Source: Clostridia bacterium (GTDB lineage: Bacteria > Bacillota > Clostridia > Peptostreptococcales > JAAYPU01). Taken from it: DNA of 64,000 nucleotides. The position numbers and the translations under genes were made by a program. The stretch's first letter is position 1, and the number at the start of each line of letters is the position of its first letter. The stretch spans positions 1-64,000 of the forward strand of contig JADQBM010000010.1 of the NCBI GenBank assembly GCA_016278615.1, read 5' to 3'. Shown in pieces: positions 3,195-48,352 of this stretch. Below the pieces are notes generated by a model. That model was not told where the DNA came from, searched no databases, and saw only the letters and a list, made by a program, of their open reading frames with translations.

Positions 3195-4086
3195 AGTAAA
3201 AAATTTATATAAATCCTTTAACGGTTATCCCGTTCTTACAGATTTAAACTTAACCGTACAAAAAGGATCAATCTATGGTCTCGTTGGTGCCAATGGAGCT
3301 GGTAAGACCACACTCATCAAACACATTGTTGGCGTTTTCAAGCAAGATAAGGGGGATATATTAATAAAGGGTTGCCCTATATTTGAAAATACTCTTATGA
3401 AATCAAATGTAGGTTACATATCGGACGATTTGTTTTTCTTTTCTATGTATAGTTTAAAAAACATGTCTCGCTTTTATAAAAAAGTCTATTTCAGTTGGAA
3501 TCAAGAACGGTATCAATTCATGCTTAATCTATTCAGATTAGATGAAAACAAGAGAATTAGCAAATTCTCTAAAGGAATGCAAAAACAGGCCGCACTGATT
3601 TTAACCATGTCCTGCATGCCTGAAGTCCTTGTTTTAGATGAACCCATTGATGGTCTTGATCCCTTAGTTAGAAAAAAAGTATGGAAAATGATTATAGAAG
3701 ATGTGTCTGAAAGAGAAATAAGCGTTTTGATTTCTTCCCATAACCTTAAAGAACTTGAAGGGATATGTGATTCAATTGGCATCCTAAATGGGGGTCGAAT
3801 GGTTATAGAAAGAGAACTGGATGAACTAAAATCTGATATATCCAAAATACAAGTCGCCTACAAAACGGAGTTTCCAGAAGAGCTTTTTGAAAAATTAGAT
3901 GTACTGCACCATGAAAAAAGGGGAAGCGTTGATCTTTTTATTGTTAAAGGAAACAGAAATGCCATTATAGAAATGCTTAAGAATCTTAATCCTTTGGTAT
4001 TAGACGTGTTGCCTCTTACCTTAGAAGAAATATTTATTTACGAATTAGGAGGTGATGGCCATGAAATCGAAGGCATCCTATTTTAA
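3187..4086 (+). CDS. ABC transporter ATP-binding protein
   Basis: Walker A GANGAGKTT, signature KFSKGMQKQ, Walker B LVLDEP; overlaps GntR stop. Confidence 0.9.
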   Translation: MIEVKNLYKSFNGYPVLTDLNLTVQKGSIYGLVGANGAGKTTLIKHIVGVFKQDKGDILIKGCPIFENTLMKSNVGYISDDLFFFSMYSLKNMSRFYKKVYFSWNQERYQFMLNLFRLDENKRISKFSKGMQKQAALILTMSCMPEVLVLDEPIDGLDPLVRKKVWKMIIEDVSEREISVLISSHNLKELEGICDSIGILNGGRMVIERELDELKSDISKIQVAYKTEFPEELFEKLDVLHHEKRGSVDLFIVKGNRNAIIEMLKNLNPLVLDVLPLTLEEIFIYELGGDGHEIEGILF

Positions 4087-6085
4087 TTTAAACAAGAACG
4101 TCTTTATAGAAGATATGAGACGTTTTTGGGGAATATCTGCTTTATACTCCATAGTTTTGTTGTTTTCAAGTGTTTTCCCAATACTAATGACTTATAGTAC
4201 TTTATCTGAACATGGTTATTTTCTGATTAATAGAATACTAAACAATGGGAATTTCCTTCCCTTTTTATTTCTTACAACAGCTCCCCTTGCCGCTGCTGTG
4301 CTGATTTTCAGATATTTACAGAACAATAATTCCACAGCTGTAATCCATGCCTTTCCCTTTACAAGAAAAGAGCTGTTTGTAACCCATTGTATCTCTGGCA
4401 TCATTATAATTTCACTACCTGTGATTATTAACGGTTTGTTATTACTTTTAATTAAAAAGCCTGTCTATAGTACTGAACTTGTGCCTGTGGATATATTCAC
4501 CACAGCAGCCATATTAAAATGGGTAGGTCAAAGCCTGCTAATTGCTATTTCTGGCTTTTCAATAGCTGTGTTTGCAGGGATTATCAGCGGCACCTCTTTG
4601 CTACAAACCATATTCGGAGCTGGTTTTCTCTTTTTACTTCCTGCAATAGGAACTCTATTATTATTTTATTTTGATCATTTTTTCTTTGGATTTAATTCAG
4701 GTTGGAAAATGAGCCAACTTGTTATCAATTTGTCACCAATTACTTCGATTCTTGACCATAATGATGCTCAGTTTTCTTCAGGTTTTATTATTTTGTATAT
4801 TCTCTTAACCATTATTTTGCTGGCTGCATCTTACATACTTTATATGTTTCGAAAATTGGAACGGTCAACAGATTCAATTGCTTTTGACTTTTTGAAACCC
4901 CTGTTTAAATACAGTGTTTCGTTTTGCGGCATGACGGTTTTGGGCATATATTTCATAGGATTAAGTGAAAATAGAATTTTTGGCATGTATTTAGGTTTTA
5001 TAGTAGGTTCTCTCATTGCTTATATCATCGCTGAAATGGTTGTGGAAAAAACCATATGGGTTTTTAAACACTTGAAAGGCTATTTGTTTTTTCTTATCAT
5101 CGCGGCACTTTTTGTTACACTTATTCAAACAGATATAACCGGCTATGAAAGAAGACTTCCGGTATTTGATAAAATAGAGAGTGTGTATTATGGCAATTTC
5201 CCTTCAGATGATAGAGAATTTCATACGCTTATGAGCGAAGACAACATCGAATCTTCGCTTGAATTTCACCAAACTATTGTAGATAATAGAAAATGGTTAG
5301 AAAGAGATCCCAGTAGCGAAACCTACAATATTACATTGAATTATCTCATGAAGGATGGAAAAGTTTTTACAAGACAATACACTTTACCCTACGAATTTTT
5401 CAAACATAATCCATATGTTAAAAAAGTTTATGAATCTGCCGAATATATCAAAGCAACAAATCCAATTTTCCATGTGCAAGAAAAGGATTTAAAAATTATA
5501 TCCTTAGATTCAGCACTGCTTCCTGATAAAAGCATACAGATCATTAATTCTTTTGAAATAAAAGAGTTTTGTGAAGTTTTAAAAAGAGATCTTTTAAATG
5601 AAAGTTTTGAAGACATGATGTCCAGAAAAGCACCCCTGGCAAGAATCGAGTTTTTCTGGAAAGATAATAATGAATTACAAGAGAAGTATTACTATGGACC
5701 TGCCCTGAAAAAATCCTATGCAAATACCCTGAATTGGCTTGAAGTCAAAGACTATTTAGATGATATTACAGTTTACCCTGAGGATATCAAATACATATCC
5801 ATCAAGAGAAACAGTGAAAATTCAACGACCTATCCTCAAGAAACAAGAAGTGCCTCAAACAACCTGATGATCCCTACTGCCACAACGGATTTAATGGTCG
5901 TTACCGATAAAGAGGCAATACAAACTATCCTTGATAATTATGAAAATCGCCACTATCACAATAGCGAAGGGTATTTACTCACAATAGGTTTGAATAATGG
6001 TAGTACAAATAACGGCTTTTTTCAAATCACTACTGCTCCACCCTTTATCATAAATTATTTTAACACACCGATGGTTTCGGATTAA
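4061..6085 (+). CDS. ABC transporter permease (multi-TM, with large extracytoplasmic/C-terminal domain)
   Basis: Many hydrophobic segments, overlaps upstream ATPase; AGGAGG 8 nt before ATG 4061. Confidence 0.8.
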   Translation: MKSKASYFNLNKNVFIEDMRRFWGISALYSIVLLFSSVFPILMTYSTLSEHGYFLINRILNNGNFLPFLFLTTAPLAAAVLIFRYLQNNNSTAVIHAFPFTRKELFVTHCISGIIIISLPVIINGLLLLLIKKPVYSTELVPVDIFTTAAILKWVGQSLLIAISGFSIAVFAGIISGTSLLQTIFGAGFLFLLPAIGTLLLFYFDHFFFGFNSGWKMSQLVINLSPITSILDHNDAQFSSGFIILYILLTIILLAASYILYMFRKLERSTDSIAFDFLKPLFKYSVSFCGMTVLGIYFIGLSENRIFGMYLGFIVGSLIAYIIAEMVVEKTIWVFKHLKGYLFFLIIAALFVTLIQTDITGYERRLPVFDKIESVYYGNFPSDDREFHTLMSEDNIESSLEFHQTIVDNRKWLERDPSSETYNITLNYLMKDGKVFTRQYTLPYEFFKHNPYVKKVYESAEYIKATNPIFHVQEKDLKIISLDSALLPDKSIQIINSFEIKEFCEVLKRDLLNESFEDMMSRKAPLARIEFFWKDNNELQEKYYYGPALKKSYANTLNWLEVKDYLDDITVYPEDIKYISIKRNSENSTTYPQETRSASNNLMIPTATTDLMVVTDKEAIQTILDNYENRHYHNSEGYLLTIGLNNGSTNNGFFQITTAPPFIINYFNTPMVSD

Positions 6086-26713: not shown

Positions 26714-27237
26714 TGGAAACGGTAAGTGTTTCTCTAATAACGTCTTTTTTACGAAAAGGAAAATTGAAAAATCTAAAAGATATTTATATTAGAGGCTGGT
26801 ATCTTCTTTTGGTAGCAGGACTTCTTCAAATTTTATTGAAAACAGGTGTTTTGACTGATTATTTCTATCCCATTGTGATGCTCTCTTATTTCTCCATATT
26901 ATTATGTTTAGGATTGAATTATAAAAGCATCCCTATACGAATTGCATTTGCAGGGACTTTTTTAAACTTTATGGTTATTGCCCTTAACGGTGGACTCATG
27001 CCCGTCTCATTAAAAGGTCTTCAATTTGCCGGTTACGACGTAACCTCTTCCAGATTAGATGCCTTCCACTGCTTAATTACAGAATCCACACGTTTAAGCT
27101 TTTTATCCGATATCATTCCCATCCCAGAACCTTATCCCTTTCCTCAAATGCTCAGTATTGGTGACTTTTTTCTCATGGTAGGCGTGTTTTTATTTATTAT
27201 GGAAACAGTGAAGGGAAAAGCTAGAGAAGAAACTTAA
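26707..27237 (+). CDS. DUF5317-like membrane protein
   Basis: Hydrophobic 176-aa ORF overlapping the HD-GYP gene; MPVSLKGLQFAGYD-type sequence. Confidence 0.6.
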   Translation: MLMETVSVSLITSFLRKGKLKNLKDIYIRGWYLLLVAGLLQILLKTGVLTDYFYPIVMLSYFSILLCLGLNYKSIPIRIAFAGTFLNFMVIALNGGLMPVSLKGLQFAGYDVTSSRLDAFHCLITESTRLSFLSDIIPIPEPYPFPQMLSIGDFFLMVGVFLFIMETVKGKAREET

Positions 27238-27385
27238 GTATAAGTTTAAGTGTAAGTTAAATCTCAAGTATTAAGTCTCCTAAATAGAAGCTCTAACAAT
27301 TACTATTCTCTATTTTAAACTCACTTTAACTCCGAAGGAGTTTACTTACACTTACACTCATACTTACACTTATAACTTAAGCCGC
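27235..27385. repeat. hexamer-armed palindromic intergenic element (AAGTNT / ANACTT arms, AACTCC-GAA-GGAGTT core)
   Basis: Left ACTTAAGTATAAGTTTAAGTGTAAGTT, right TTACTTACACTTACACTCATACTTACACTTATAACTTAAG. Confidence 0.7.
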
Positions 27386-28552: not shown

Positions 28553-28636
28553 AGCATAGGTAATTAATAAAACAATGAATAATGAATAATTGATGTGGAG
28601 ATTTTGCCATTTTGGCAAAATCTCTTTTTATTTGTA

Positions 28637-28691
28637 AAAGGTAAGGGGACACACCTCTGCAAGGCGGTCTATCTTATTGAGGAATGTCCCC
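28637..28691. repeat. ~55-bp REP-like repeat, GGGGACA..TGTCCCC, copy 1
   Basis: AAAAGGTAAGGGGACACACCTCTGCAAGGCGGTCTATCTTATTGAGGAATGTCCCC; copies at 28784-28840 and 61531-61585. Confidence 0.8.
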
Positions 28692-28745: not shown

Positions 28746-28774
28746 TTGATAAAGAACATATGTTCGTGTAAAAT
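28746..28774 (+). promoter_or_regulatory. dinB promoter (TTGATA-N17-TAAAAT) with LexA/DinR box GAACATATGTTC between -35 and -10
   Basis: -35 28746-28751, -10 28769-28774, palindrome 28754-28765. Confidence 0.8.
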
Positions 28775-28896: not shown

Positions 28897-30141
28897 ATGG
28901 TTATTTTTCATATAGACGCCAACTCAGCTTATCTAAGCTGGGAAGCAGCTTTTCAACTTGAACAAGGCAATACCATGGACCTTCGCCAAATCCCCTCTGT
29001 TATAGGAGGAGACCCTGACAAAAGAAGTGGGATTGTACTCACAAAGTCTATCCCTGCAAAAAAATATGGTATTAAAACAGGAGAAACTTTATATGAAGCC
29101 AAGCAGAAATGCCCTCATTTAATAATTATTCCTCCAAATTATGACTTGTACCTTAAATGTAGCAATACCATGTATCAATTGCTCCACGAATATTCTTCTA
29201 AAGTACAACGGTACTCTATAGATGAATGTTTTTTGGACTACACAGAATCTCAAAAATTATTTGGAAACCCAATAGAGACTGCCTTGGCCATAAAGGAGCG
29301 GATTAAGAATGAATTAGGCTTCACTGTCAATATTGGCATTTCCACCAATAAACTCTTAGCTAAAATGGGTTGCGAACTTGAGAAACCCGATAAGCTTCAT
29401 ACACTATTTCCCGAAGAAATAAAATATAAGCTTTGGCCTCTTCCTGTGGAAGAACTCTTTATGGTTGGCCCAGCAACTTCTCAAAAGTTGAAGAAGATTA
29501 ATATCAATACCATTGGTGAATTAGCTAATACCAATATGCTTTATCTTAAGACTTTATTAAAAAGTCACGGCATTCTTATATGGAATTATGCCAATGGCAT
29601 TGATCATTCTCCTGTTCATAATAGTGGTGAAATTATACAAAAAGGGTTAGGAAACAGCACCACCCTACCCTTTGATATAACCCATAGCAAAGAAGCCTAT
29701 AGGGTGCTCTTAGCCTTGACCGAACGCGTCTCCATGAGATTAAGGAATTTAAACTGCCTTTGCTTTTTGGTTGCCATTTCAATCAAAACCGATACTTTTG
29801 TTCGATATTCACATCAGATAAAGCTTATTGTTCCAACAAGCTCCACAACAGAAATTTTTAATTCTGTTAAAAGACTTTTTGATGATGTCTGGAAGCATGA
29901 GCCCATTCGTCATTTAGGGGTACGGGTTTCGGAATTTGTTGCAAAAGATTTTTATCAACTTTCTTTTTTCGATAGTAAATATAAAGAAAAAAATCAAAAA
30001 CTCGATAGGACAGTGGACCTTATACGAGAAAAATATGGTGATACCGCATTGATTAGAAGCTGCTTCATTCACAGCAATCTATCTCCTTTTCAGGGTGGCG
30101 TAAACGAAGGAGATTATCCCATGATGTCAAGCGTTTTGTGA
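28897..30141 (+). CDS. dinB: DNA polymerase IV (Y-family)
   Basis: VIFHIDANSAYLSWEA, YSIDECFLD, NIGISTNKLLAKMG. Confidence 0.94.
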   Translation: MVIFHIDANSAYLSWEAAFQLEQGNTMDLRQIPSVIGGDPDKRSGIVLTKSIPAKKYGIKTGETLYEAKQKCPHLIIIPPNYDLYLKCSNTMYQLLHEYSSKVQRYSIDECFLDYTESQKLFGNPIETALAIKERIKNELGFTVNIGISTNKLLAKMGCELEKPDKLHTLFPEEIKYKLWPLPVEELFMVGPATSQKLKKININTIGELANTNMLYLKTLLKSHGILIWNYANGIDHSPVHNSGEIIQKGLGNSTTLPFDITHSKEAYRVLLALTERVSMRLRNLNCLCFLVAISIKTDTFVRYSHQIKLIVPTSSTTEIFNSVKRLFDDVWKHEPIRHLGVRVSEFVAKDFYQLSFFDSKYKEKNQKLDRTVDLIREKYGDTALIRSCFIHSNLSPFQGGVNEGDYPMMSSVL

Positions 30142-30328
30142 ATTAATAATGAATAATGAACAATGAATAATTTAGAAAGAGATTTTGCCTCGAGCAAAAT
30201 CTCGCTATCTTACAGGTCTACATGCTTTATATTTAATGATTGAAGATTTTAGATACAAAATCCTCCTTCATTATTCATTATTCATTGTTCATTATTCATT
30301 ACTCATTATTCATTGTTCATTAAAACAT
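30139..30328. repeat. heptamer-armed palindromic intergenic element A (AATAATG / CATTATT arms)
   Basis: Left AATAATGAATAATGAACAATGAATAATT; core GAGATTTTGCCTCGAGCAAAATCTC; right CCTCCTTCATTATTCATTATTCATTGTTCATTATTCATTACTCATTATTCATTGTTCATT. Confidence 0.85.
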
Positions 30329-30341
30329 CGGGGGTGTTAAC

Positions 30342-30605
30342 ATGAAAATCGTTTCTAAGCCTATTGAAATGATTGCTTGGTTTAAGGAAAAAAAAATTCC
30401 TGAGCCTTTAAGGTTCAGGCTCAAGAATGATGATCATTCTTATTTAATTATAAAAGTTCATAAAATTTTGGAAATTCGAGAAGAAAAACTTGCTGGTATC
30501 CGATCCTATGTCTATCACTGTCAAAGCACCGTACACAATACAGAAAAAATCTATGAACTTAAATTCATTATTGGAGAATGCAAATGGATTCTTTATAAAA
30601 TATAG
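30342..30605 (+). CDS. hypothetical small protein downstream of dinB
   Basis: 87-aa ORF with GGGGGTGTTAAC RBS. Confidence 0.6.
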   Translation: MKIVSKPIEMIAWFKEKKIPEPLRFRLKNDDHSYLIIKVHKILEIREEKLAGIRSYVYHCQSTVHNTEKIYELKFIIGECKWILYKI

Positions 30606-31802: not shown

Positions 31803-31940
31803 AAGAGAATGAAGAATGAAAAATGAAGAATTGTAGAGGATTTCAAAAACCGAAATCTTCATTATATAGATTAAAGGATTTTGCATTGCAAAATCCCTCC
31901 TTAATTCTTCATTCTTCATTCTTCATTCTTAATTATCTTA
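31803..31940. repeat. heptamer-armed palindromic intergenic element B (GAATGAA / TTCATTC arms)
   Basis: Left GAATGAAGAATGAAAAATGAAGAATTG; core GGATTTTGCATTGCAAAATCCCTCC; right TTAATTCTTCATTCTTCATTCTTCATTCTTAATT. Confidence 0.85.
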
Positions 31941-34921: not shown

Positions 34922-34956
34922 CAAAAAACCGCCCGGACTTATTATGCCCAGGCGGT
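34922..34956 (-). terminator. leader terminator upstream of pflB
   Basis: Minus ACCGCCTGGGCATAATAAGTCCGGGCGGTTTTTT. Confidence 0.8.
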
Positions 34957-35018
34957 CGACTTTCATATTCATCACACTTCACGTGGTTTTTTCCACCTAT
35001 CCGCCAGTCATGTGATGC
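34945..35018 (-). promoter_or_regulatory. ZTP riboswitch (pfl RNA motif) aptamer
   Basis: Minus GCATCACATGACTGGCGGATAGGTGGAAAAAACCACGTG...CCGCCTGGGCA immediately upstream of a terminator and pflB. Confidence 0.82.
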
Positions 35019-35069
35019 TTTTATTATAAGATAAGAATAACAAAACATTTTTATTATGTCAATAAAGCC

Positions 35070-35262
35070 TTTAGGATTTAAGATTTAGGATTTAGGATTG
35101 AAGGAGGATTTTATTTCATAAAATCTACATCTTGCTATTTAAAAAAATCATTAAAATACATGTATCTTGAACAACCTAAAGATGTCCTTAGAAAAAATAA
35201 TTAGGTTTTACCTAAGCAAAACCCACCTTCAATCTTAAATCCTAAATCCTAAATCTTAAACC
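35070..35262. repeat. heptamer-armed palindromic intergenic element C (TTTAGGA / TCCTAAA arms)
   Basis: Left TTTAAGATTTAGGATTTAGGATTGAAGGAGGATTTTATTTCATAAAATC; right GGTTTTACCTAAGCAAAACCCACCTTCAATCTTAAATCCTAAATCCTAAATCTTAAA. Confidence 0.85.
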
Positions 35263-36174: not shown

Positions 36175-36285
36175 ATAACATAAAAATAACCTGTAGGTGT
36201 ACAGTCCCACAAGTTTTACCTGCTGCTCTTCAAGCCCGGCGCACACGCAAATTTCACGTACCGCCTGATCCGTTTAGATATGGTT
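36175..36285 (-). promoter_or_regulatory. candidate NiCo (czcD-type) riboswitch leader
   Basis: Minus ACGGATCAGGCGGTACGTG..CGCCGGGCTTGAAGAGCAGCAGGTAAAACTTGTGGGACTGTAC upstream of a CDF exporter. Confidence 0.55.
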
Positions 36286-45007: not shown

Positions 45008-45372
45008 TTTAAGTATAAAGCATAAATAGACGCCTTTGGCGTAGGAAAAGTGTGAGTTTAAATAGGCTACTTCGTAGCCAGTTTAAGTTTAAGTTCAAAC
45101 AGAAGATTTTGTGAAACAAAATCCTCCATAATTCTTAATTCTTAATTCTTATCTTACACTTCCACTTCTAGTTTTACTTAAACTTAAACTTAAACTTATC
45201 CTTACCCTTACACTTCCACTTCTACTTTTACTTAAACTTATCTTTCCACTTACACTTCAACTTATACTTTTACTTACACTTCAACTTATACTTACACTTA
45301 CACTTACACTTACACTTACACTTATACTTCAACTTATACTTTTACTTGCACTTCCACTTATCCTTCCACTTC
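45008..45372. repeat. composite intergenic region: GC hairpins, GATTTTGTGAAACAAAATC core, and a ~200-bp degenerate hexamer array (ACTTAC/ACTTAA)n
   Basis: CTTACACTTACACTTACACTTACACTTACACTTATACTT... period-6 array; core AAGATTTTGTGAAACAAAATCCTCC. Confidence 0.85.
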
Positions 45373-45781: not shown

Positions 45782-46100
45782 ATTCCAATTGTAAATAAAA
45801 GTGTGAGTAGAAGTGTAAGTGTGAGTGTGAGTGTAAGTATGAGAGAAGAAAAGCTTTGAATAATGTGTTTTAAAAACTCAACACTTTAATCTTTATATTC
45901 ATTCAACTTAAACTACTCCGAAGGAGTTTATTTATACTTAATATCTTGACACTTACACTGCCCCGAAGGAGCCTATTCATACTTGACACTTAAATAATTC
46001 TTTGACAGAAGCACCTCAACTGGTTAAAATAGAAAGGTATGTAATTAAAGAGTTTCAAGTGCAAAGTTTAAGAATTAAGCTTAAGTGTAAGTGTAAGTGT

Positions 46101-46216
46101 AAATTGTAGAGATGGGTCCCTGTGCCCATCCGCATCATTGAATAAAAAAAAGTTTAAGTATAAGTGTAAGTTAAATTGTAGGGATGGGTCCCTGTGCCCA
46201 TCCGCATCATTGAATA
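46101..46216 (+). repeat. tandem ~72-bp duplication in ABC-F leader
   Basis: AAATTGTAG(A/G)GATGGGTCCCTGTGCCCATCCGCATCATTGAATA at 46101-46144 and 46173-46216, each preceded by hexamer repeats. Confidence 0.85.
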
Positions 46217-48239: not shown

Positions 48240-48352
48240 GGTTTGCCCTCTGCTTCTACTTACACTTACACTTACACTTCTACTTTTTCTTACTTACCCT
48301 TCACCTTCACCTTATACTTACACTTATACTTAAGCTTAAGCTTCAGCTTTTC
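48240..48352. repeat. degenerate hexamer array (CTTACA)n adjacent to SASP stop
   Basis: CTACTTACACTTACACTTACACTTCTAC...CACCTTATACTTACACTTATACTTAAGCTTAAGC. Confidence 0.8.

Follow-up and report, generated by a model that had tools for sequence, protein, structure and literature searches.

What kind of sequence follows dinB in this clostridial genome, where the stop codon runs directly into an array of seven-base repeats, then hairpins, then a second array on the opposite strand? The locus, here called element A, spans 30141–30321 (about 180 bases) of the window, the whole 64,000-nucleotide stretch of DNA that was analysed. Element A is probably a non-autonomous miniature mobile element of the foldback type, and the family to which it belongs is a real, high-copy copying element of that type in one small group of Clostridia. 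The parts of element A, its neighbours and two sister elements are as follows.

28897–30141, plus strand: dinB (Y-family DNA polymerase), the host gene of the element; stop codon TGA at 30139–30141
30141–30171, plus strand: left heptamer arm, class N (AAYAATG), about 4 units; overlaps the last base of the stop codon
30172–30178, plus strand: left connector, in which the family motif TTAAGGAA has decayed; family consensus beside the arm, A(A/T)GG
30179–30203, plus strand: hairpin 1, GAGATTTTGC-CTCGA-GCAAAATCTC
30204–30241, no strand: AT-rich spacer separating hairpins 1 and 2
30242–30265, minus strand: hairpin 2, read on this strand as AAGGAGGATTTTG-TATC-TAAAATCTTC; inverted copy of the half-module type
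30262–30268, minus strand: right connector CCTCCTT (AAGGAGG on the minus strand)
30267–30321, minus strand: right heptamer arm, inverse complement of class N, about 7.6 units
30342–30605, plus strand: small conserved open reading frame of 87 amino acids, present 3' of dinB at each of the three orthologous loci, with its start 20 nt past the right arm
31806–31934, no strand: sister element with class E arms (GAAGAAT)
35070–35260, no strand: sister element with class T arms (TTTAGGA/TTTAAGA)

The layout of paired heptamer arms around two hairpins, described in an earlier note on this DNA, holds; the two arrays are unequal, since the right one has nearly twice the units of the left. The right array contains one CATTACT unit, and hairpin 2 reads GAAGATTTTA-GATA-CAAAATCCTC on the plus strand, with a 6-bp core GATTTT/AAAATC. 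The heptamer repeats exceed chance (AAYAATGAAYAATG is matched 13 times in the window; 0.5 expected). Folding of the whole as one long hairpin, which the same note had proposed, is confirmed by calculation: as RNA (190 bases) the minimum free energy is -53.3 kcal/mol versus -25.3 in shuffles (z -8.2), as single-stranded DNA -35.3 (z -7.8), and the predicted shape is a single long arm-arm stem around both hairpins. Rfam gave only sub-threshold matches to plant microRNA models, which are long-hairpin artefacts, and an integron attC site (ends RYYYAAC...GTTRRRY) was rejected on the right end, which has no GTTRRRY. The 87-amino-acid reading frame had no Pfam match.

Element A is a diverged member of a large family; a look for genome-wide copies of the discrete palindromic element had been advised in the earlier note. 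BLAST with element A gave 144 matches in its own genome, no near-identical twin among them; three consecutive AAYAATG units occur 152 times (0 for the reversed control); and 94 paired-arm copies were found in the 1.40 Mb surveyed of the 3.5-Mb genome. In a 707-kb sample of stretches mostly picked independently of arms, 104 period-7 arrays were counted versus 0–4 at periods 3–5, 8–11 and 13, periods 12 and 14 being multiples of 6 and 7; hexamer arrays (21) form a separate class. Scaled up to the whole genome, the 21 arm pairs of this sample give about 100; this is a lower bound, as arm-rich stretches had already been removed from it.

The family layout is arm, A(A/T)GG, hairpin, AT-rich spacer, inverted second hairpin, CC(A/T)T and inverted arm, with TTTTGC/GCAAAA hairpin stems. 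Four arm classes (N, AAYAATG; R, AGATAAY; E, AAGAATT; T, TTTARGA) occur with one core; arms have a median of 4.9 heptamers, uneven between the two ends, and paired copies including arms measure roughly 80–330 bp and lack coding capacity. Core length is bimodal, 27–40 nt with one hairpin and 60–182 nt with two. The same arm class stands on both sides of the core in 78 of the 94 copies (mean 33.9 and maximum 49 in 10,000 shuffles), namely in 78/87 two-hairpin copies versus 0/7 single-hairpin copies (Fisher P 1e-6); in the nearest relative (G001), two further single-hairpin copies, and likewise the short single-hairpin element behind its dinB, have mixed-class arms. The unit is best described as two inverted half-modules, each a heptamer array, A(A/T)GG and a TTTTGC/GCAAAA hairpin, joined by the AT-rich spacer, so that the arrays form its terminal inverted repeats.

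The two local hairpins conserve pairing while their sequences change. Among 158 hairpins with 74 different 8-nt stems, 98% of positions are paired, a percentage biased upward as the hairpins were found by a pairing search; the 95th percentile of the shuffled control, 11.7, is exceeded by 91% of real halves. Half-stems combined across elements pair at only about 58–61%, and long-range pairing between hairpin 1 and hairpin 2 is at 58–61%, no better than between random elements. An alignment of 26 class-R copies has at least one compensatory change at 8 of 15 pairs.

A pair of inverted hairpins, a short motif conserved at their outer foot, compensatory stem changes and more than 90 extragenic copies near 3' ends recall REP, REPIN and BIME sequences; REPs occur as inverted pairs with preserved palindromes (Nunvar et al., PMC2817692). 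The elements could accordingly be two inverted REPs mobilised by a REP-associated tyrosine transposase (RAYT), the heptamer arrays being incidental neighbours, and six Y1 transposase genes are present in the genome. RAYT genes are, however, described as always flanked by their own REPs (PMC2817692), and the AAGG/TTTTGC half-module forms the ends of none of the six (flanks scanned for arms and hairpins); the one hairpin with an R arm near such a gene (L106) lies more than 1 kb away and is not terminal. The conserved motif is A(A/T)GG, with no GTAG head (the test for GT(A/G)G failed), and homology between copies covers the heptamer arms, which travel with the unit. With two defining features absent, the GTAG head and a cognate RAYT between inverted copies, filing as REPIN was rejected, and this origin is considered unlikely; a mobile unit that includes its arms is preferred.

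A separate REP system does coexist in the genome. The Y1 genes L106 (G000:C101:12440) and L105 (G000:C109:644) lie amid GTAGGG-type REP hairpins and are its probable RAYTs, whereas two others (L101 and L102) adjoin GGGGAC-type repeats; similar GTAGGG hairpins elsewhere adjoin hexamer (AAGTNT) or RATTAGG heptamer arrays. A search for an autonomous element between unpaired same-class arms 0.2–3.5 kb apart yielded three candidates, none with a convincing transposase.

New intergenic gaps have received copies of whole units, arms included, in one orientation or the other. Homology between class-R copies spans arms and core in both orientations while the flanks are unrelated, and the heptamer arms belong to the unit because this homology covers them. 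Contig C18 (L238) carries an element at 1074–1228 (site 1), common to this genome (G000) and G001 at the orthologous place, and about 1 kb away at 2184–2341 (site 2) an inverted copy whose core is 86% identical to that of site 1; G001 has no element at site 2. At a second candidate empty site (L224), judged from coordinates only, the gap measures 195 nt here and 37 nt in G001. The outer ends show no surplus of direct matches that would mark target-site duplications, a weak test, as array ends are ambiguous; because no such duplication was seen, the elements are said only to work like MITEs.

That the arms had arisen independently, as ordinary slippage repeats without matched partners, had been named in the earlier note as the finding that would count against an element; this was not borne out, the arms being matched in class far more often than by chance and moving with the core as one unit. 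Immobile slippage arrays that had grown where they stand, flanking old hairpins, would fit the weak correlation of arm lengths within an element (r 0.23) and the orthologous gaps that often hold different arrays, and period 7 is given as the most frequent of the long repeat periods in many bacteria (Mrazek, as cited in PMC4679880). Inverse-complement arms of the same class in 78/94 copies, the recurrence of whole units with arms between unrelated flanks and the copy filled here at a site empty in G001 (L238 site 2) argue against such growth; it is already contradicted by the filled/empty pair, unless the pair is a duplication that included flanks, and is regarded as highly improbable in favour of copied units. 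Part of the turnover could still be change in place, because many orthologous gaps of G001 hold some other heptamer-and-hairpin sequence.

The arms agree in class and are anti-matched in unit order. The presence of the minority unit AACAATG in both arms of element A had been read as a sign of matched arms; this reading does not survive, because the C/T variant is common genome-wide and unit order is not mirrored between the arms. At the variable base of the units (C/T; in class R any of the four), agreement between arms is lower within than between elements: with near-duplicates removed, zero-register identity is 0.794 within versus 0.820 between elements in class N (P 0.001) and 0.832 versus 0.852 in class R (P 0.0005). 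The deficit lies at variable unit positions (for example, 2/26 matches at the innermost R unit versus 8.1 expected); it is modest, yet seen in two independent classes. An origin of one arm as a mirror copy of the other, by hairpin-primed copying, was rejected on this result. The anti-matching probably arises because long perfect palindromes are lost.

Copies are retained only behind genes, immediately downstream of stop codons, and divergent promoter regions have none. Compared with element-free gaps of at least 120 nt, copies are missing between divergent genes (0/83 versus 105/436, P 2e-9) and enriched between convergent genes (19/83 versus 43/436, P 0.0025); co-directional genes flank 64/83, often with the whole gap filled. 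The median distance from stop codon to arm is 12.5 nt, individual distances being approximate as genes were called by a simple ORF finder, and 7 copies lie inside called, mostly short, reading frames. The array of element A, which starts on the last base of the dinB TGA, was correctly noted as flush with the stop; this is typical, because family copies sit close behind stop codons.

Such positions would also suit a bidirectional intrinsic terminator or another selected 3'-end RNA element, with the arms as secondary expansions: every copy lies behind at least one gene, the 8 nt on the inner side of the hairpins are T-rich (51% T), and the terminator hairpin at 28574–28640 is conserved in G001, the heptamer arm beside it being present only in this genome. 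Yet only 20/158 hairpins have six or more T among the 8 nt that follow the stem, hairpin 1 of element A has GCTATCTT behind it and no U-run after its stem, presence differs between close relatives, and most copies stand between co-directional genes. Termination as the origin is thus quite unlikely, and the element behind dinB most likely rides in the 3' untranslated region as a tolerated passenger, adding a stable RNA hairpin before the next gene. The stretch 28571–28640 of the window is a half-module on a terminator.

The family is confined to a narrow group. The core module AAGGWNGATTTTG..CAAAATC occurs 51 times in this genome, 8 times in G001 and once in G002 (reversed control 0), and is absent from 115 other genomes of the order; the three carriers are the three genomes of the taxonomic family. 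The best DinB match elsewhere is 78% identical in amino acids over its full length (L107, genome G060), and the L107 sequence equals that of G001 at two places compared. The region behind dinB was compared in relatives, as the earlier note had advised. In Alkalibaculum bacchi (DinB 62%) the gap has no element; in the nearest relative the dinB stop is at the same place and behind it lies another element, with one hairpin and a different arm class, and the insertion event of element A itself was not caught.

SbcCD is a nuclease that cuts hairpins and long palindromes. SbcD scored above the curated cut-off in 23/28 other genomes of the order tested and in 0/3 carriers, where full-length SbcC neighbours were likewise not found (locus noted: G000:C86:29417–29692); five non-carrier genomes also lack SbcD. 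Because the carriers form one clade, the absence counts as one correlated event and is no more than a lead. Inverted-repeat arms of at least 28 nt numbered 0 in 400 kb of five SbcCD-positive genomes, 3 in 314 kb of five SbcCD-negative genomes outside the family and 16 in 707 kb here; the direction is the same, but outside the family the counts are too small for a conclusion. Other heptamer arrays (CAGGAGA, TGAATAC) stand in a distant relative, Paradesulfitobacterium (L160, 13816–14221), which suggests that the phenomenon is wider than this family.

Over-representation of heptamers in bacteria has been noted for years without explanation (PMC4692102, PMC4679880). The closest published relatives are the intergenic GGGAATC arrays of Xanthomonas, which form convergent inverted pairs, 70–75 per genome and mostly of 4 units (Rehm et al. 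2015, PMC4692102); they lie close behind stop codons, are under-represented between divergent genes and were interpreted as G-quadruplex DNA (PMC4692102). Period, pairing and position at gene ends are in common; there, one G-rich unit with no core was described (PMC4692102), whereas here four AT-rich classes, a two-hairpin core and copying of whole units are found, and the AT-rich arms cannot form quadruplexes. Intergenic period-7 arrays of few units, as here, are also present in cyanobacteria, Beggiatoaceae (TAACTGA, PMC4679880) and Geobacter (PMC2700814), but are mostly single and direct, with neither inverted partner nor hairpin core. In foldback elements (Drosophila FB, nematode Tm1) the terminal inverted repeats are short tandem repeats whose number varies between ends (PMC3169594), and such inverted ends are found here. 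Those elements are eukaryotic and longer, with target-site duplications and sometimes a transposase (PMC3169594); the present ones have 7-base units, measure about 180 bp, have unrelated sequence and show no duplication.

Several features of MITEs are likewise present: copies are short, non-coding, many and dispersed; they have terminal inverted repeats, same-class arms with homology that reaches the arm ends; and they are present or absent at orthologous sites (L238 site 2; L224, by coordinates only; the A. bacchi dinB gap). Ends shared with an autonomous transposon were not found among the six Y1 transposase genes. The BrickBuilt MITE of Porphyromonas gingivalis is likewise a bacterial miniature intergenic element with a minisatellite of variable unit copy number; its tandem 23-mers are internal, between simple IS5-type inverted ends, whereas here the tandem repeats are the inverted ends (PMC4596501). 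A literature search found no description of palindromic heptamer elements in Clostridia.

As a mechanism we propose that the unit would be copied by an enzyme acting in trans that recognises single strands or hairpins; that arm length may then change after insertion by slippage of 7-base units; and that long perfect palindromes would be lost, leaving arms with mismatched unit order and, with one hairpin, arms of different class. A wider proposal, tentative and on balance doubtful, is that of a bacterial foldback-transposon family with interchangeable heptamer-array ends, expanded in a lineage that lost SbcCD, where residual pressure against palindromes is seen as anti-matched unit order and mixed-class single-hairpin copies, the G-rich convergent pairs of Xanthomonas being another branch. 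If this is true, foldback and not quadruplex formation is the property common to those pairs and the present elements. That the arrays here terminate a unit which is copied and has a defined core gives a concrete reason for inverted pairs behind genes, and mismatched arms together with the absence of SbcCD in three carriers make palindrome tolerance testable by genome comparison and in a laboratory strain.

Further arrays and motifs were recorded. A different palindromic core (AAACTCTCCAATCTTTGATTGGTAAGAGTTT) stands between or beside the same heptamer arms at L223:8649–8954, L250:1257–1624 and L099:13923–14160; several N-class elements lie among tRNA genes at L083 (G000:C75) 3405–4998 and L085:68–785, and two contigs carry near-identical copies. 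Arrays of the hexamers AAGTNT/TTAAAC, some forming inverted pairs, occupy 45080–45371, 46075–46216, 48253–48349 and 27235–27372 of the window, some adjoining a GTAGAGATGGGTCCCTGTGCCCATCCGC hairpin; the array at 27235 is missing in G001 (185 versus 30 nt). Upstream of dinB, about 130 nt before its start codon, GAACATATGTTC at 28754–28765 is a LexA-type SOS box conserved in the relative L107 and flanked in this genome by two copies of a GGGGACACACCTCTGCAAG..GAATGTCCCC repeat. A ZMP/ZTP riboswitch (34939–35021, minus strand) and a NiCo riboswitch (36200–36282, minus strand) score above the Rfam gathering threshold.
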